64,000 nt of DNA from Gammaproteobacteria bacterium (GTDB lineage Bacteria > Pseudomonadota > Gammaproteobacteria > JAKDMP01), in the NCBI GenBank assembly GCA_027018875.1, contig JALUYA010000032.1:90567-154566 (forward strand), written 5' to 3'. The position numbers were made by a program, and so were the translations under genes. Position 1 is the stretch's first letter; the number at the start of each line of letters is the position of its first letter. The notes below the pieces were generated by a model. That model did no database searches. It saw only the letters and a list, made by a program, of their open reading frames with translations, and was not told the origin of the DNA. Below are positions 1-18,720 of this stretch, one piece after another.

Positions 1-7
1 GCGGTTC

Positions 8-1036
8 CTAACCCTTCAGGCCGCGACGTTTCAACTTCTCCACCAGGGTGGTTCGGCGGATGCCCAACAGCCGAGCGGCGCGAGCGATCACCCCACCCGT
101 TTCCTCTAGGGCCATGCGGATCAGGTCTTCCTCAATCAGTCCCAAGTGACGCTTGAGATCGAAGCCTTCGCCGAAGCCGGGATTCGCACAGACAAATTCC
201 GGGCGCGATTCCTCCGGCGACGGCGTCTTGCCGGCATTTCCGGTGATCTCCTCGGGCAACCGGGCCGGATCCACCACCTCGCCCGGATAAAGAACCGCCA
301 AACGCTCGATAATATTGTTCAACTGCCGGACATTGCCGGGCCAGTGATACGCCAGCAGGCTGTCAAGTGCCTCGGGGGTGAGGTGAACCGGCGCCAGCCC
401 GCGCCGCTCAAGTCGCTGGGATACCCGTTCGATCATGATAGGCACATCTTCGCTCCGCTCTCGCAAGGGCGGCAGCTCGATCGGCAGTACATTCAACCGA
501 TAATAAAGATCCTCCCGAAACCGTCCCTCGCGAACCAGCTCCCGCAGATCACGATGCGTCGCGGCAATAATCCGGGCCTCTACGGTGAGCGCTCCGCCCT
601 GACCACCCAGGCGCTCAAACTTTCGCTCTTGGATGACACGCAAGAGCTTGATCTGCATGTCGGGGCTCATTTCACCGATCTCATCCAGCATCAGGGTGCC
701 GCGACCGGCAAGCTCGAACCGGCCTTTACGCCGGACTACGGCTCCCGTAAAGGCCCCGCGCTCGTGACCAAACAACTCGGATGCCAGGAGATCCGCCGGG
801 ATTGCGCCACAATTGACGGGGACGAAAGGTTCCCGCGCACGCAGGGATCGCGCGTGGATTTGCCGCGCGGTCACCTCCTTCCCGGTTCCGGATGCGCCGA
901 GAATCAAGACGGTAGTATCGACACAGGCGACCCGCTCGACCAATTCCCGTACCCGGATCATGGCCCGGCTGTTCCCCAGCAGGCCCTCCTCCCAGGCAGG
1001 CGTGTCTTCCTCGGCCACCTCCGCATTTATTCCCAT
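8..1036 (-). CDS. FleQ-like sigma-54-dependent activator lacking the N-terminal domain
   Basis: Transcription activator that should open sigma-54 promoters of flagellar genes. The 342-residue protein is essentially an AAA+ domain (about residues 18-260) plus a C-terminal Fis-type helix-turn-helix (about 305-342). The Walker A is GASGTGKE (residues 47-54; the usual second residue is Glu), GAFTGA, the sigma-54 contact loop, is at 94-99, and a LMLDEIGE Walker B follows. Only about 17 residues precede the AAA+ domain, so the receiver-like regulatory domain of FleQ/FlrA (about 480-500 residues in total) is missing. It lies at the motor end of the cluster, after ycgR, whereas fleQ usually sits beside fleS. 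No good ribosome binding site precedes the ATG at 1036. It could be a second, truncated paralogue, with the full-length FleQ elsewhere. Confidence 0.85.
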   Translation of the reverse strand: MGINAEVAEEDTPAWEEGLLGNSRAMIRVRELVERVACVDTTVLILGASGTGKEVTARQIHARSLRAREPFVPVNCGAIPADLLASELFGHERGAFTGAVVRRKGRFELAGRGTLMLDEIGEMSPDMQIKLLRVIQERKFERLGGQGGALTVEARIIAATHRDLRELVREGRFREDLYYRLNVLPIELPPLRERSEDVPIMIERVSQRLERRGLAPVHLTPEALDSLLAYHWPGNVRQLNNIIERLAVLYPGEVVDPARLPEEITGNAGKTPSPEESRPEFVCANPGFGEGFDLKRHLGLIEEDLIRMALEETGGVIARAARLLGIRRTTLVEKLKRRGLKG

Positions 1037-9241: not shown

Positions 9242-9510
9242 CCACTGATAACCCCGGGTATGCTCCGCACCAAGTTGGCCGTAAAGTCCATCAGGATATG
9301 CAGCATCCAGGAACCGGCCAGCAGCAGAACGACCCCCATAACGAAAATTTTCGGGATGAAAGACAGGGTCAATTCATTGATTTGCGTAGCCGCCTGGAGA
9401 ATGCTGATTACCAGCCCCGCCACCAGCCCCGCCACCAGCAGGGGTGCCGCAACCAGCATAGTGACCAGCAGCGCCTGCTGCCCGATAGACATAATTTCGG
9501 AAACATGCAT
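9238..9510 (-). CDS. fliQ: Flagellar export protein FliQ
   Basis: Small two-helix component of the FliPQR pore. The frame is open to 9555, but the ATG at 9510 overlaps the fliP stop as TGATG and gives 90 residues, the normal length. The hallmark segment is IGQQALLVTMLVAAPLL followed by a second hydrophobic helix and a QAATQINE loop. It is coupled on both sides to fliP and fliR. Confidence 0.93.
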   Translation of the reverse strand: MHVSEIMSIGQQALLVTMLVAAPLLVAGLVAGLVISILQAATQINELTLSFIPKIFVMGVVLLLAGSWMLHILMDFTANLVRSIPGVISG

Positions 9511-10265
9511 CAGTGATAAAAACTCCCTACCAGAGAACCGATCGTCAAGGTCCAACCATTGACGAGTACGAAGAGCATGAGCTTGAACGGCAATGAAATG
9601 GTGACGGGGGACAACATCAACATCCCCAGCGCCATCAACACCGAGGCAACGACCATGTCGATGATCAGAAAGGGAATGAACAGCAGAAAACCAATCTGGA
9701 ATGCCGTCTTAAGTTCCGAGGTCACGAAGGCGGGAATCAGCACCAGCATCGGCACGGGTTCCGTTTTCTTGATCATCCCTTTTCCGGAAAGTCGTATGAA
9801 CAATCTCAAGTCGGCGCGGCGCGTCTGCCGCAGCATGAAGCTGCGCATGGGCCCGGCCCCCCGTTCAAGCGCCTGGGTCATGCTGATCCGGTTTGCCAAC
9901 AGCGGTTTAAGCGCCTGTTGATTAATCTTGCTCAGGGTAGGCGCCATGACAAACAAGGTAAGAAACAGGGCCAGACCGATCAAGATCTGATTGCTGGGAA
10001 CCTGGATGGCACCCAGGGCCTGGCGTAACAGCGCCAGGACAATGATAATGCGGGTAAACGCCGACATCATGAGCACGGCGGCCGGCAGCAACACCAGCGC
10101 CGTCATGAGCAACAGGGTCTGGATGGGAAGGCTGTAGGTCTGGCCGCCATGCGCGGCGGAGCTCGAGATAAATAGCGGTAACGTGCCCTGGGCCTGGGCC
10201 GCAGAACTAATCGTGACGAGAAGAATTCCCGCCGCCAGTCCCCGTAACGCTATTCTCCTGTTCAT
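9510..10265 (-). CDS. fliP: Flagellar export protein FliP
   Basis: Core of the export pore. It has 251 residues with a cleavable N-terminal signal (hydrophobic residues 8-24, then AQA) and four membrane helices. The family-specific LPAAVLMMSAFTRIIIVL segment is near residues 80-97, and the FLLFIPFLIIDMVVASVLM segment is near the C-terminus. Its start lies inside the end of fliO, a 59-base overlap, so fliO and fliP are tightly linked. Confidence 0.93.
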   Translation of the reverse strand: MNRRIALRGLAAGILLVTISSAAQAQGTLPLFISSSAAHGGQTYSLPIQTLLLMTALVLLPAAVLMMSAFTRIIIVLALLRQALGAIQVPSNQILIGLALFLTLFVMAPTLSKINQQALKPLLANRISMTQALERGAGPMRSFMLRQTRRADLRLFIRLSGKGMIKKTEPVPMLVLIPAFVTSELKTAFQIGFLLFIPFLIIDMVVASVLMALGMLMLSPVTISLPFKLMLFVLVNGWTLTIGSLVGSFYH

Positions 10266-10740
10266 GCTCCGTCGTTTTCCCCTGTTGCAGACTCTGCATC
10301 AGCCGTTCCATAAAAACGGCATCGCGGGAAGGGGGGGGCTCGCTGTCCGGCGCCGCATCGATTCGGCCAAGTAATTCCACCCGCTGAGCACTGACACCGA
10401 TCAAAAACTGCACCCCGCCTGCTTCTACTAGCAAGAGCCGTGCCCGGTTGCCCAATGGCAGACTGGAGAGGATCCGTAGATTCCCCCGGACCGGACGCAG
10501 CGACGTCCCGCCGAAACGCTTAAAAAGCCATAACCCCACAAAAAGCAAGGCGAGAACCAGGCCGAGACCCCCGAAAACCCGAAAGATCTGGCCGGCCGAA
10601 ATCGGCGCGGCGGAGGCCGCGCCCCCCCCGGCCCAAACCAAGGTAGGGGTAAACAACAAAATGGGAATGACAAGCCACTGACATACTGACGCGCGACCCG
10701 TCATTCTTATGACGCTACGCCAGGCCGGCATGCTCTTCAT
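10207..10740 (-). CDS. fliO: Flagellar biosynthesis protein FliO
   Basis: Bitopic membrane protein that assists FliP assembly. After an N-terminal hydrophobic stretch it has one transmembrane helix (VFGGLGLVLALLFVGLWLF) and a cytoplasmic domain with the conserved LPLGNRARLLLVEAGG motif. The open frame extends back to 10857 inside fliN; I place the start at the ATG at 10740, just after fliN. An ATG nine bases further on (10731) is at better distance from a GGAAG sequence, so the start is uncertain by three codons. The 3' end overlaps fliP. Confidence 0.82.
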   Translation of the reverse strand: MKSMPAWRSVIRMTGRASVCQWLVIPILLFTPTLVWAGGGAASAAPISAGQIFRVFGGLGLVLALLFVGLWLFKRFGGTSLRPVRGNLRILSSLPLGNRARLLLVEAGGVQFLIGVSAQRVELLGRIDAAPDSEPPPSRDAVFMERLMQSLQQGKTTEHEQENSVTGTGGGNSSRHD

Positions 10741-10762
10741 CTTCCGCACTCGACCGGGCCGC

Positions 10763-11221
10763 TCATGATACAGATTGCAAACGCTCGGCCCGATCGACCG
10801 TATCCAGCAAGCGAATGCCGAATTTATCATTGACCACCACGACTTCCCCGTGCGCAATCAAATAGCCATTGACCAGCAGGTCGAGGGGTTCCCCGGCCGC
10901 ACGGTCCAGGCTGATGACGGATCCCCGGGCCAACTCCAGCAAATCACCCACCCGAATTTTCGTTCGCCCCAGTTCCACCGAACAAGTGACCGGGATCTCC
11001 ATCACCAAGGCCAGGTTGCGATGATCGGCCGGGGATTCATGGTTCTCCGTTAATGGGGAAAACTCAGCCGCTTGCGCCTCGGGAATAGCTTGCGCCACGG
11101 TATCGTCAATCGGGGGAGCCGCGGCTTGCGCCGCAGAACCCATATCGGGGTTCACCGTCGGTTCGTGCGCCGAATCCGGGCTGCTCGCATCGCCTATAGT
11201 CGGTTTGTCATGATTTGCCAT
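10763..11221 (-). CDS. fliN: Flagellar switch protein FliN
   Basis: C-ring component. It has 152 residues: an acidic, Ala/Pro-rich disordered N-terminal part (about 1-70), then the conserved SpoA domain with IPVTCSVELGRTKI and GEVVVVNDKFGIRL. The N-terminal extension contains no FliM-like CheY-binding motif, so this is not a FliM-FliN fusion. A GAGG ribosome binding site lies nine bases before the ATG. The upstream neighbour is fliL at 32 bases, whereas fliM is normally between these two genes. Confidence 0.92.
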   Translation of the reverse strand: MANHDKPTIGDASSPDSAHEPTVNPDMGSAAQAAAPPIDDTVAQAIPEAQAAEFSPLTENHESPADHRNLALVMEIPVTCSVELGRTKIRVGDLLELARGSVISLDRAAGEPLDLLVNGYLIAHGEVVVVNDKFGIRLLDTVDRAERLQSVS

Positions 11222-11253
11222 GGTGTATGCCTCGGGAATAAAACCTAGATGGC

Positions 11254-11835
11254 CTATTGCACCACAAAAGCGGTGAAATAGACTCCACTGATGGGTCCCG
11301 TCATAACGCCTCCCGATGATACCGCTACAGCTGGTGTCGCCGATGTCGCCGACGTCGCCGACGTCGCCGGTACCGTCCCGGCGCGTGCCGCCGTGGCGGC
11401 CGTTGCCGTGGCGCCAGGTCCGGATCCCAGGATGGCGTTGATCACATGCAGAATTTTTCCTCTTAGTGCCTGACGCCCCTGCGGGCGGATAACCTGAAAC
11501 AGGTTTTGCTCGGCCAGAATGTTCAAAATCGCATTGCGGATTTCCGGGCGCCGGGCGGCAACCTTGGCCGCGGCATCCGGATCCCGGGTTTTCAACTCGA
11601 TGGTCACCTGGATATAGTGCAGTTCGCTGGTCGAGGTCAGGTTGCTGACGAACGGATCAAGCGTAATGTAATGCGGCGGGGGCAATGCCGTTTTTTTCGC
11701 TACCGGTCCCCGCCCGTGCATAAATACATAGCCGCCACCCGCCAACACGATTACCAGCCCCCCGCCCAGGGCCAACCACAACCACAACGGCTTGCGTTTT
11801 TTCTTGACTTCTACCGTTTCCTCGGAATCAGCCAT
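11254..11835 (-). CDS. fliL: Flagellar basal-body protein FliL with low-complexity insertion
   Basis: Single-pass inner membrane protein that surrounds the stator. A basic KKKRK start leads into one transmembrane helix (about residues 15-35) and a periplasmic SPFH-like domain with the LDPFVSNLT and YIQVTIELKTRDP segments. The canonical end, VYFTAFVVQ, is present, but about 40 Ala/Thr/Ser-rich residues are inserted before it, where most FliL proteins go straight from the last helix to this strand. The insertion overlaps a short DNA repeat. The ATG at 11835, with a GGAAGGG site four bases upstream, is preferred over the TTG at 11859. Confidence 0.88.
   Translation of the reverse strand: MADSEETVEVKKKRKPLWLWLALGGGLVIVLAGGGYVFMHGRGPVAKKTALPPPHYITLDPFVSNLTSTSELHYIQVTIELKTRDPDAAAKVAARRPEIRNAILNILAEQNLFQVIRPQGRQALRGKILHVINAILGSGPGATATAATAARAGTVPATSATSATSATPAVAVSSGGVMTGPISGVYFTAFVVQ
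11336..11371. repeat. Short 9-bp tandem repeat inside fliL
   Basis: About four near-identical copies of a 9-base unit (GTCGCCGAC with one C/T variant), encoding repeated Ser-Ala-Thr triplets in FliL. A 9-base unit keeps the frame, so copy number could vary without breaking the gene. Confidence 0.6.
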
Positions 11836-11855
11836 GACCCTTCCCGTGTAAACCC

Positions 11856-13205
11856 TCAAACATAGGTGTTAATGATACCCCGCGCTGCCCGGTTGCCCAT
11901 CCCCGGATAAGAGGTGAACTCCACGGCCCCCGGCCCCGTCACTCCCGGTAAGGGAAGCGCACGGATAAATCGCCGCGTATTTCCATCCGATGAAGCATCT
12001 CTTCGCCCGCCATCCGCCACGAACGCGCCGGCCAGCGCCACGCCTTGTTGGGCGAGAGCCTGGCGCAGTGCGGGCAATGCCGCCTCCAAGGCTTGGCGCA
12101 CATCGGGATAGGGGGAAACGAACAAGGCGTTGAGATTCTGCCGGGTAGTGGAAAGATGAACCTGCAAATGTCCCAAATGCGGTGGATCCAGACTCAGTAT
12201 GGCCTCGTGTTGGTTTTGTCCCACCATGATCAGGAGGTGTTGGCCTATGGCCTTGGTAAACCGCGAACTCCCCGCCAAGGCTGCTCCATACGTCTTGCCG
12301 GTCGCCACGGGCTTCGGTATGGACAATGCCGACATGAATTGAGTCAATACGGTCGGCAATCCCTGAGACGATTCACCTTTCCTTCGCGTCACTGGACCTA
12401 AACGATGAGTCGAAGTTTTTTTCGTTGCCGCCGCGTCCCGAGGATCCCGAGACCGCTCCATTTCCCGTAACACCGTAACAACGGCTCTTTCCGGCCTCCC
12501 GGGTTTCACGTTTTTCCCCTCACCCACCGCCGCCGCCGGCGGTAATGCCGCAAGCGGAGGTAGCGTCAAGCCTTGCCCTACCCCGCCTACCCGGGGCAAA
12601 GCAAGAGTCGAATCGGCCGCCTTTCCCCGACCGGGTCCGGAACTTACCGTTGATTTTCGAACCGAGGAGGGGACCGGAGCCGGGGCCACGTCGAAGTTCA
12701 CCGTCGCCGGTGTCAAAAGCCGTCTTTTCCAGCTATTCGTCACCTCCTCCGCGACCCGATCCGAAGCCTCCGGTGCTGTCGCCGCCACCACGGAGGGCCG
12801 TTGTTTCGCCCCGCCCTCCCTGGAAAACGAATCTCTTCGGCCTCCCCGCCCGGCGTCATATCCCGACTCGACATCGCGGTTTCCCGCAGCCGTGACAGAC
12901 GAGAAAGCCACTGTGCCGTTCAGGAAATACACCCCCGGTAATCCCCCAGGCCCGATCTTTTTGGCAGGCATCACTTTTTTGCCCCGCAAGCCCGCTCGGG
13001 AAAGCTCCGGCGGCAAAGATTTGCCCTCGGTGCGGCTTGAACCGGCCGCCGGGGCGGTGCGTGATCTCATTTGCCGTAGCAGTTCATGGAAACCCTTACC
13101 GCTGCCGCCGTGAGTACTGCCAGCCGGTAACGTGCCCGCCCTCCGAGCCCCCTCCGGCGGCGACTGGACCCGGGCAATGGAGAGACGAGGAACTGCGGTA
13201 CTCAT
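11856..13205 (-). CDS. fliK: Flagellar hook-length control protein FliK
   Basis: Secreted molecular ruler that sets hook length and triggers the FlhB switch. It has 449 residues, mostly Ala/Pro/Gly/Ser-rich and poorly conserved over residues 1-330. The C-terminal hook-length domain (about 335-420) is recognisable by LSLDPPHLGHLQVHL and the following ALEAALPALRQALAQQGV. Its position between fliJ and fliL is standard. Identification rests on the C-terminal domain and gene order. Confidence 0.88.
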   Translation of the reverse strand: MSTAVPRLSIARVQSPPEGARRAGTLPAGSTHGGSGKGFHELLRQMRSRTAPAAGSSRTEGKSLPPELSRAGLRGKKVMPAKKIGPGGLPGVYFLNGTVAFSSVTAAGNRDVESGYDAGRGGRRDSFSREGGAKQRPSVVAATAPEASDRVAEEVTNSWKRRLLTPATVNFDVAPAPVPSSVRKSTVSSGPGRGKAADSTLALPRVGGVGQGLTLPPLAALPPAAAVGEGKNVKPGRPERAVVTVLREMERSRDPRDAAATKKTSTHRLGPVTRRKGESSQGLPTVLTQFMSALSIPKPVATGKTYGAALAGSSRFTKAIGQHLLIMVGQNQHEAILSLDPPHLGHLQVHLSTTRQNLNALFVSPYPDVRQALEAALPALRQALAQQGVALAGAFVADGGRRDASSDGNTRRFIRALPLPGVTGPGAVEFTSYPGMGNRAARGIINTYV

Positions 13206-15038: not shown

Positions 15039-15730
15039 TGGATCAGATCCTCATCGAACAGGGCCGCCAGAACCTGGCGCCAACGCCGTTCCACGCGCCC
15101 ATCCACTTCGGTGAGCACCTGCCCTTCGCGTTGCCGCCAACGCCGATCCGCACGAATCGGTTCCTTCTCGAGCACTTCGAGAACACACCCACCCCGCGAC
15201 AGGGAAGAATCCGCCACCCAGGACAAATTCTTACCGGATAGCTCTTCACGGCGCTCTTCGATAATTGCCAAATCCTGGGGATGCAGGCGCAAACGCAAAG
15301 GACCGTGCGGGATGGGAACTCGGCGCAGCGTCTCGCGAACGACCCCGATTAGCGTGTCCGGTTCCACCGTGATCTCGCGTAAAACCACGCGGCGGGCGAT
15401 TTCAAGCGCCAAGGCCACCAGGGCGGACTCCACGCGCGGCTCCAGTTCGACGAGGGACTCGCTCAGGCGCCGGACAATCCGCCGTAAGTCTTCCGCCGCC
15501 CGCTCTGCTGCGATAATTCCCGCCCGCCGACCTTCTTCATACCCCACCGAATAGGCTTCGGAATGCACCCGCTGCCGCAATTGCTCCAGTTCATCCCGCC
15601 ACTCGGGAGGCAGCCCGGACAGTGCCTCGGCGGGAGCCCGATCCGCGCCCCGCTCGCGGCCGCCGGGGCGCTCGGAGCGATTGAGATCCGGCGGCTTCCA
15701 GGTCCGGGGAGGCGGGGAGGCGCGGCTCAA
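15035..15730 (-). CDS. fliH: Flagellar export regulator FliH
   Basis: Negative regulator and stalk-like partner of FliI. It has 231 residues: a Pro/Arg-rich N-terminus, a long helix containing YSVGYEEGRRAGIIAAERAA (a small-xxx-small pattern common in FliH), and a C-terminal globular domain with LVALALEIARRVV and VSRGGCVLE-like segments. It begins with TTG overlapping the fliG stop as TTGA. Confidence 0.9.
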   Translation of the reverse strand: MSRASPPPRTWKPPDLNRSERPGGRERGADRAPAEALSGLPPEWRDELEQLRQRVHSEAYSVGYEEGRRAGIIAAERAAEDLRRIVRRLSESLVELEPRVESALVALALEIARRVVLREITVEPDTLIGVVRETLRRVPIPHGPLRLRLHPQDLAIIEERREELSGKNLSWVADSSLSRGGCVLEVLEKEPIRADRRWRQREGQVLTEVDGRVERRWRQVLAALFDEDLIQ

Positions 15731-16752
15731 ATCATCTCTTCCGAGCCGCTTTTAAGGATCAACTGCCCTTGTTCCGCCAGGTTCCGCGCCGCGCGCAAAA
15801 TTTCCTTTTGCGCCATTTCCACCTCATGCAACCTAACCGGCCCGTGGGCCTCCAAATCATCCCGGAGTATCTCGGCGGCACGCTTGGACATATTGTGGAA
15901 TATCTTTTCGCGCAACTCCTCCGAGGCCCCCCTTATCGCAATCAGCAAGGTGGCGGACTCCACCTCGCGCAGCAGCACCTGCATGCCGCGGTCATCTAGC
16001 TCTATCAGATCGGCGAACACGAACATGAAATCCTCGACCTTTTCCGCCAGGTCCGGATCACTCTCCTTGAGCCGCCCGAGCATCCGCTCCGTCCGCTTGG
16101 CATCGAGGCGATTTAAAACTTCCGCCGTCGTCTCTATCCCGCCGAATGAATTCATATTCAAGGCGTCCTGATTGCCACTGGATTGCTCATTGAGCGCCTC
16201 GGCCAACTCCCGCAAGGCCCCGGGCTGCACGCTCCCGATGGTGGCCATCCGTTCCAGGGCTTCATAGGCCAGATCCTCCGGGAGCATTCCCACGACTTCC
16301 CCCGCCTGGTCGCTGTCAAGCAACGCCAGGATCATGGCCACGACCTGGGGGTGTTCGTTGCGCATCAACTCGGTAATCGAGCGGGCATCCATCCATTTCA
16401 GGTTGCTCAAACCCGCACCGATACCTTCCAGCGAATCACTGGAACTCGGCACGATTTTCGCCAACATGGCCTCCCCCTGGCGCTTTCCTAGGGCCTCGGT
16501 AAGCACCTTGCGCAGATACTCGGATGAGCCGGCAACGACTCCCGAGCGGGTCCGGGAGGAAAACTGTTCCAAGGCCTCGGCGACCTTATCCATCGACACC
16601 GAACGCATCGCGGCCATCGCCGAACTCAGACTGCGAACTTCGCGCACATCGAGATGCCGCATTACCTTGGCGGCGCGCTCCTCGCCGATCGCCAGCAAAA
16701 ACACGGCACAGCGCTCCAGCCCGCCGCGTACCTGGGTTTCATCTGCACTCAT
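15727..16752 (-). CDS. fliG: Flagellar switch protein FliG
   Basis: C-ring component that receives torque from the stator. It is full length (341 residues), with N-, middle and C-terminal armadillo-like domains. The EHPQ motif (NEHPQVVA) and the charged torque helix near MFVFADLIELDDRGMQ are intact. The frame is open to a GTG at 16764, but the ATG at 16752 overlaps the fliF stop as ATGA and is the better start. FliG normally contacts FliM, which is not encoded here. Confidence 0.94.
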   Translation of the reverse strand: MSADETQVRGGLERCAVFLLAIGEERAAKVMRHLDVREVRSLSSAMAAMRSVSMDKVAEALEQFSSRTRSGVVAGSSEYLRKVLTEALGKRQGEAMLAKIVPSSSDSLEGIGAGLSNLKWMDARSITELMRNEHPQVVAMILALLDSDQAGEVVGMLPEDLAYEALERMATIGSVQPGALRELAEALNEQSSGNQDALNMNSFGGIETTAEVLNRLDAKRTERMLGRLKESDPDLAEKVEDFMFVFADLIELDDRGMQVLLREVESATLLIAIRGASEELREKIFHNMSKRAAEILRDDLEAHGPVRLHEVEMAQKEILRAARNLAEQGQLILKSGSEEMI

Positions 16753-18347
16753 TTGGACAGCCACTCCCGCATCACTTCAGCGGCACCACTCGGGTCTTTG
16801 TCGATGACCTCGCGCGCCGCATGGATTTGCCTTGACAAACCGGCCTCGGAAGTCGCAATCCGCTGCGCTTCCGCCTGGGCCATCGCGGCTTCCTCCGGCA
16901 CCGCCCGGGCTCCGGCCGCATGCGCCTCGATTCGTTTGAGAGCCGCCTTCAAAATCGGGCGGATCAGCAGGAACCAAAGCAACAGAAAGCCCAGCACCGC
17001 CACTAAATAACGTAACGCCACCGGTACCAGGGGGGAATGCCACCAGGGAAGCGGCGGGACTGCAACCGGGGCCTGCTTGGATGCAAACGGCATGCTGACC
17101 ACGCTGATGCCGTCGCCGCGGGCCGCGTTAAAACCGACGGCGTTTTTGACCAATGTCGTAATGCGGGTGATTTCCGCCGCCGGTAAGGGCATGGACTTGG
17201 TCTTGCCCTTGGCCCCCTTCACGCTGCGGTAATCGAGTAATACGGCAATGCTCAGGCGTTTCACCACCCCGGGAGTAATCGTCAAATCTTTGACGACCCG
17301 GTCGTTCTGGTAATTAACCGTGCTGGAGGACTGTTGCGAGCCGGAACGGGAAATTCCTGAACCCGTCTGCGAGGATGGCGCCTGCACCAGGGGTGCCGCC
17401 GCCGCACCGGGCGGCGTATTGGACAGGGCTCCGGGAATCCCCACGGCTCGAGTCGACAATCCGTTTTTGCTCAGCCGCGCCTGCTTGCTGAGCACGTGCC
17501 CCTTGCCATAAGTAACCGAAGCGGTTCGGCCCTTGCTAAAAGCAATGTCTGCCGCCACACTGACTTTCACATGTCCTACGCCGACGATAGGCGAAAGCAG
17601 CCCCACGATCTGCATCTCCAGGCCCTGTTCCACCTTGTTTTGATAGCTCAATTGCGCCGGTCCCGCCACCGCGCCCTCCAATCCGGCGCCGCTAAGCAGA
17701 TTGCCGTTCTGATCGATGATCGAAACATTCCGATCATCGAGCCCCGTCACCGCCGCCGCCACCAGGTGCTCGATTCCCATCACCTGCATGGCCGACAACG
17801 TCTCTCCCGGGTTCAGTACCAGCAACACCGAGGCCGTGGGCTTACGGTTATCATCCATAAAAACCGGCGGCGGCGGAATGGCCAGATTCACTTGCGCGGA
17901 GTGCACCGCGGACAATGAATCGATCGTGCGCGCCAGAGCTCCGGCCAGGGCTCTTTGATACTGGACCCGTTGCACGAACTGGCTGGTTCCAAGGGGTTGC
18001 TTGGAAAGGCTTGCAAAGCTGATCTCACCGGTACTGGGAAGCCCCTCGGCAGCCAGTTTCAATCTCAATGAATCGACCCGTCCGGCGGGGACCTCGATAA
18101 TGGATCCTCCGCCACTTACCCGGTAAGGAACATTCAATTTTCCCAGCGCGGCGATAACCTCACCACCCGAACGGAGGGAAAGACCGGAATACAGGGGCTG
18201 AAAGGCGGGAGAATTGGCCCACATGACACTGACAATCGCGGCGCTGATAAACAGGGCCAAGGCCGCCATCGCCCCGACTCTCTGCCCCTGGCTCATGCCC
18301 TTCCAGGCCGCCGCGGGATCGGCCAAGGCTTGCCTCAAGCCGGCCAT
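16749..18347 (-). CDS. fliF: Flagellar MS-ring protein FliF
   Basis: Forms the MS ring in the inner membrane. It has 532 residues with an N-terminal transmembrane helix (about 24-45), the ring-building motif domains (PLYSGLSLRSGGEV, then the AAAVTGLDDRNVSIIDQNG segment), a periplasmic collar and a C-terminal helix (about 445-465). The cytoplasmic tail ending MREWLSK is the FliG-binding region. Length and order are standard. Confidence 0.95.
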   Translation of the reverse strand: MAGLRQALADPAAAWKGMSQGQRVGAMAALALFISAAIVSVMWANSPAFQPLYSGLSLRSGGEVIAALGKLNVPYRVSGGGSIIEVPAGRVDSLRLKLAAEGLPSTGEISFASLSKQPLGTSQFVQRVQYQRALAGALARTIDSLSAVHSAQVNLAIPPPPVFMDDNRKPTASVLLVLNPGETLSAMQVMGIEHLVAAAVTGLDDRNVSIIDQNGNLLSGAGLEGAVAGPAQLSYQNKVEQGLEMQIVGLLSPIVGVGHVKVSVAADIAFSKGRTASVTYGKGHVLSKQARLSKNGLSTRAVGIPGALSNTPPGAAAAPLVQAPSSQTGSGISRSGSQQSSSTVNYQNDRVVKDLTITPGVVKRLSIAVLLDYRSVKGAKGKTKSMPLPAAEITRITTLVKNAVGFNAARGDGISVVSMPFASKQAPVAVPPLPWWHSPLVPVALRYLVAVLGFLLLWFLLIRPILKAALKRIEAHAAGARAVPEEAAMAQAEAQRIATSEAGLSRQIHAAREVIDKDPSGAAEVMREWLSK

Positions 18348-18380
18348 GGTTCAAGCTCGCTGTTCATGGGCATGACCTTT

Positions 18381-18698
18381 TCATACCTGTAGATTCATGA
18401 TTTCCTGATAAGCGCTGACCAGCTTGTTGCGCACCTCCACCATGGCCTGGAAGGAAAGATCCGCCTTCTCCAGGGCCACCATGACCTGGCTGATATTGAT
18501 ATCCGAATTCCCACCGGCCACGGCATTGCTCAAGCCCGTGGCGACCTGCTGTTGTTGGTTCACCGTGTCGATGGCGCTACGCAACGTGGCGGCAAAATCC
18601 GTTCCCGCCACGGTAGGCGCCCTGGCCGGGGGCTCGCCGGCCATCGCGGCCGTTGCCTTCAACTGATTCAGTACCGATTCAAGCGCCTTGCTGTTCAT
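18381..18698 (-). CDS. fliE: Flagellar hook-basal body protein FliE
   Basis: Connects the MS ring to the rod and is the first export substrate. It has 105 residues. The C-terminal part shows the conserved sequence LEKADLSFQAMVEVRNKL followed by AYQEIMNLQV. It lies 22 bases after fleR and 33 bases before fliF, so it probably belongs to one transcript with them. Confidence 0.92.
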   Translation of the reverse strand: MNSKALESVLNQLKATAAMAGEPPARAPTVAGTDFAATLRSAIDTVNQQQQVATGLSNAVAGGNSDINISQVMVALEKADLSFQAMVEVRNKLVSAYQEIMNLQV

Positions 18699-18720
18699 GG
18701 GTTCCTCGTCGATCTAACCT

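Follow-up and report, generated by a model that had tools for sequence, protein, structure and literature searches.

The closest described arrangement to the locus analysed here is the canonical proteobacterial fliLMNOPQR operon. The order of fliK, fliL, fliN, fliO, fliP, fliQ and fliR is the same and FliM belongs to the same family (TIGR01397), whereas here fliM has been removed from between fliL and fliN. The GGXG loop of the FliM middle domain is known for its role in FliG binding. A different likeness is offered by the fla/che operon of Bacillus subtilis, in that fliM is transcribed with chemotaxis genes, in an order that we take to be fliM-fliY-cheY. There, however, the switch genes sit inside the flagellar operon, while here fliM alone has left. 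B. subtilis fliY is placed within the 27-kb, 32-gene fla/che operon (PMC6613710) and the presence of fliM in that operon is shown indirectly (PMC6613710, PMC12153297). According to PMC9126983, CheY-P binds a conserved EIDALL motif that FliM and FliY share.

The window, that is, the whole stretch of 64,000 nucleotides analysed (C32:90567-154566), belongs to a genome (G000) of 2,212,141 bases in 54 contigs that is 95.12% complete. Its minus-strand fliL and fliN genes (Table 1) are separated by only 32 bases (window 11222-11253). As the sequence-only reading had noted, no fliM lies between them and no remnant of it is left: the spacer holds a GAGG-type ribosome-binding site for fliN only and is too small for one. 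FliN itself carries a SpoA domain at residues 72-142 but no FliM middle domain, and scores 104 bits against the TIGR02480 cut-off of 84.05. The junction lies away from the contig ends, inside the 179,742-base contig C32; there is therefore no contig break, and the suspicion that the assembly had lost the gene at this point can be dismissed. By eye, fliL also contains an Ala/Thr/Ser-rich insertion of near-repeated codons (window 11330-11400).

A profile search of the whole genome found a single match to the FliM family (PF02154), stop-free, at C32:85190-85732 on the plus strand (E 2.7e-49), and FliMN_C in two places only, namely this FliM and the window FliN. The gene around the match is intact and single-copy; it shares a contig with the gap and lies 4.5 to 5.7 kb to the left of the window, on the strand opposite to fliL and fliN. 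Its product reaches 249.1 bits with the TIGR01397 equivalog model (cut-off 219.6), has the PF02154 middle domain (E 1.5e-48) and the PF01052 SpoA domain (E 1.5e-12), both above cut-off, and aligns over residues 64-379 with the FliM chain of PDB 8umd (its residues 4-320; E 3.5e-58). The CheY-binding box LSQDEIDTLL is kept. When this FliM was aligned with ten from other genomes, L66, Q68, D72, L74 and L75 of the box were invariant in all 11 sequences, and so were G193 and G196 of the GGSG loop (residues 193-196). Thus fliM is relocated, not lost, and the finding is a minor oddity of gene order. Of the outcomes that the sequence-only reading had put forward, a relocated gene proved right, whereas a genome without FliM is contradicted by the intact copy, and a motor that does not switch finds no support, given the CheY box, the full set of FliM domains and a CheY encoded immediately downstream. 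This removes the surprising claim of a flagellum without FliM.

Table 1. Chemotaxis genes to the left of the window and flagellar genes within it. L014 is the left-flank stretch of contig C32; coordinates without a prefix are window positions.
Feature	Coordinates	Strand	Remarks
cheB	L014:9376-10488		divergent from the operon
mcp	L014:10497-12230	+	
cheR	L014:12365-13237	+	
fliM	C32:84860-86041 = L014:13461-14642	+	393 aa, intact, single copy
cheY	L014:14639-15034	+	NF007901 above cut-off
cheA	L014:15081-16970	+	directly after cheY
parA-type gene	L014:16967-17749	+	
two ORFs	L014:17864-18208, 18244-18717	+	no Pfam match
cheW	L014:18669-19178	+	last 11 bases are window 1..11
fliP	9510..10265	-	ORF; reference gene, 49-68% identity with FliP in relatives
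fliO	10207..10857	-	PF04347, E 9.5e-16; start uncertain, ORF as called overlaps fliN
fliN	10763..11221	-	152 aa; starts at 11221; PF01052 (FliMN_C), E 7.2e-25
fliL	11254..11859	-	PF03748 (FliL), E 1.8e-20; stop at 11254
fliK	11856..13205	-	PF02120, E 2.9e-18
fliG (FliM partner)	15727..16764	-	PF14842, PF14841 and PF01706, all three domains; TIGR00207 above cut-off

The new neighbours of fliM are chemotaxis genes, in the plus-strand order mcp-cheR-fliM-cheY-cheA-parA-x-x-cheW. The fliM stop and the cheY start share the bases ATGA, an overlap that is a mild novelty. At the far end, cheW runs into the window as far as position 11, where its 3' end faces that of the window's first minus-strand ORF. 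The chemotaxis genes reported as missing had thus merely been cut off by the window edge, and the lesson is that operon genes which seem to be missing should be looked for just past it. MCP, CheA, CheW, CheY, CheR and CheB are all encoded. A single sigma-70-like site was found ahead of fliM (L014:13329-13358) against 0.6 expected, which is not significant. Upstream of cheB, a FliW-like protein is encoded at L014:8679-9353 (PF02623, E 2.4e-10, under the NCBIfam cut-offs).

We consider it highly probable that fliM moved cleanly from the fliL-fliM-fliN site to its place between cheR and cheY, in a chemotaxis operon which, on the other strand and at a distance of about 15 kb, is convergent with the flagellar operon, and that its product still serves a normal motor. 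From the gene arrangement we infer co-expression, in which FliM would be made together with CheY through the ATGA overlap. FliM would then assemble with FliG and FliN, which the flagellar operon supplies, into a normal C-ring, and CheY-P would bind the LSQDEIDTLL box and reverse the motor. A switching motor is to be expected, since FliM keeps the box and both domains, and FliG, FliN, CheY, CheA, CheB, CheR, CheW and an MCP are present. Counting against this account are the divergence of FliM, its unusual 5' extension and the lack of CheZ or CheC among the proteins found.

How rare is such an arrangement? Class-wide profile searches of 369 genomes each gave FliMN_C in 196 and FliM in 190; places were listed for 149 and 151 genomes, respectively, and for both in 123. 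Among these 123, fliN follows fliM within 1 kb and on the same strand in 120. Because fliN is so regularly found directly downstream of fliM, the missing gene is a genuine departure in gene order and not chance. The three exceptions among the 123 are the present genome, G249 and G220. In G249, 1,453 bases lie between the FliM and FliN domain matches of an otherwise canonical operon; nearly 1 kb separates the genes themselves (L054:3841-4812). G220, from another family of the same class, has fliL adjoining fliN at a distance of 16 bases (L052:9747-9762), and its fliM is on a different contig (L051:9295-10368) with no recognised flagellar neighbour. Since G220 also has fliL next to fliN and fliM elsewhere, relocation is rare but not unique; the sequence-only reading had proposed looking for the same gap in related genomes, and there it has arisen too. 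The genus-mates of G220, G104 and G319, likewise have their fliM apart from any recognised flagellar gene. In all three, the surroundings of fliM held nothing recognised as a flagellar or chemotaxis gene, whereas here fliM stands in a chemotaxis operon, against cheY. G001, the only other family member compared, has neither FliM nor FliN.

Named genomes were scanned twice. With FliM alone as the query there was no match, and with an alignment (A1) as the query there were 80 loci, which are best matches and not a random sample. The fliN gene is beside fliM in 79 of these 80, comprising 77 by the script's rule together with L099 and L111, where the fliN frame overlaps an over-long fliM frame; the remaining locus (L072) is cut off by the end of its contig. 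In none of the 80 loci does cheY lie within 700 bases of fliM, and searches of an open-access library turned up no paper that places fliM between cheR and cheY.

The relocated FliM also differs from its relatives at the N-terminus. Its CheY box starts at residue 66, after a lead of 65 residues where 4-7 are usual, the box being at residue 5-8 in relatives once over-long ORF readings are set aside. Apparent long N-termini in L065, L077, L099, L111 and L140 were rejected, being readings of the longest ORF; two of these loci, L065 and L077, show an ATG shortly before the motif. The extension in the present FliM, of some 60 residues, is basic. It is probably translated, because the reading frame offers no alternative ATG, GTG or TTG in the stretch that runs from 60 codons ahead of the called ATG to the box. 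By position-specific G+C, the arm (0.63, 0.55 and 0.68) looks less like coding sequence than the FliM body does (0.64, 0.41 and 0.78), which suggests that the arm is of recent origin or that the start call is in some doubt. The DNA of the CheY box is repeated inside the arm, 75 bases upstream, over 21 bases of which 20 are identical (L014:13581-13676), and the repeat pattern occurs in these two places only, genome-wide. None of 500 codon shuffles matched the observed length of 22, the longest shuffled value of 20 being near the observed one. The upstream copy reads LSQDETDQTV and is probably a degenerate duplicate of the CheY box, because its hydrophobic residues are gone. The extension with its degenerate second box is a mild novelty.

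On a more elaborate view, this lineage has bound its switch protein to the signalling operon: fliM and cheY would be translationally coupled, and FliM would have gained a basic, probably disordered arm ending in tandem CheY boxes, one of them degenerate. This view seems to us unlikely. If it were true, the arm could, with no CheZ detectable, alter how CheY is captured at the motor or in what stoichiometry. The coupling and the extended arm would make a natural variant for asking whether switching depends on the spacing or the number of copies of the CheY-binding peptide.

Searches of this 95.12% complete genome of 54 contigs found neither CheZ (PF04344) nor CheC (PF04509), which leaves CheY-P removal without a detected phosphatase of either type. 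A search of the genome with an FlhF model gave six candidates, the two strongest of which are FtsY and Ffh, and no FlhF was detected. A genome with FlhG and no FlhF is unusual. In the window, flhG comes directly after flhA (5234/5235), with no flhF between. In L052 flhF sits between the two, as it does on visual inspection of L016 and L017. The lack of detectable CheZ, CheC or FlhF is a mild novelty.

Several other explanations for the fliL-fliN junction have to be weighed against a clean relocation. Were FliM absent altogether, the motor could not switch, or the C-ring would consist of FliG and FliN only. The empty junction is what this would produce, but an intact fliM with its CheY box lies just outside the window with CheY and CheA encoded beside it, and, unless that gene is silent, we see next to no chance that this explanation is right. 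A mis-assembly, in which fliM was dropped from its operon and joined elsewhere, might be suspected in an incomplete draft of 54 contigs. Both places, however, are within one contig, and the tight junctions between genes, with 32 bases and a ribosome-binding site at one and the ATGA overlap at the other, are unlike a random join, which makes this extremely improbable. That the relocated gene is in decay or has become specialised, its product having ceased to be a normal switch protein, would fit the divergence of FliM, its 60-residue extension and the failure to find CheZ, CheC or FlhF. It is nevertheless very unlikely, given that the frame has no internal stop, the equivalog cut-off is passed, the motif columns are kept and G+C at third codon positions is much the same in the FliM body (0.78) and in cheY (0.80). 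Nor does the divergence show decay, because the FliM of L017 has diverged even further with its gene in the canonical place; for the same reason, relocation as the cause of the divergence was rejected as unsupported.

Deletion of the native fliM and its replacement by a foreign gene, which came with the chemotaxis operon or was inserted into it, is an unlikely alternative to relocation of the native gene. FliM has diverged further than would be expected from the export proteins, falling about 11 identity points under the FlhA-based prediction over 47 pairs, where the SD among pairs without the present genome is 9.6 points, and the closest matches to it share only 38-40% identity. For the trees, 49 organisms had all five proteins; leaving out L018, whose FliM is partial, and 22 Pseudomonas rows beforehand gave the 26 rows used. 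FliP, FliR, FlhB and FlhA group the present genome with Andreprevotia lacus at full support in these 26 rows, which include few betaproteobacteria, whereas FliM, on a very long branch, is left unplaced. As this long branch is not resolved, however, the conflict between the trees is not significant, and the best FliM matches (to E 9e-70) are all from the same class, with the best outside it at 1.9e-36, which makes a distant donor unlikely.

Elsewhere, at L015:10073-15963, between flagellin and flgL-type genes, we observed by eye two ORFs of 1525 and 438 aa that are glycosyltransferase-like and methyltransferase-like, respectively, suggesting that the flagellin is modified.
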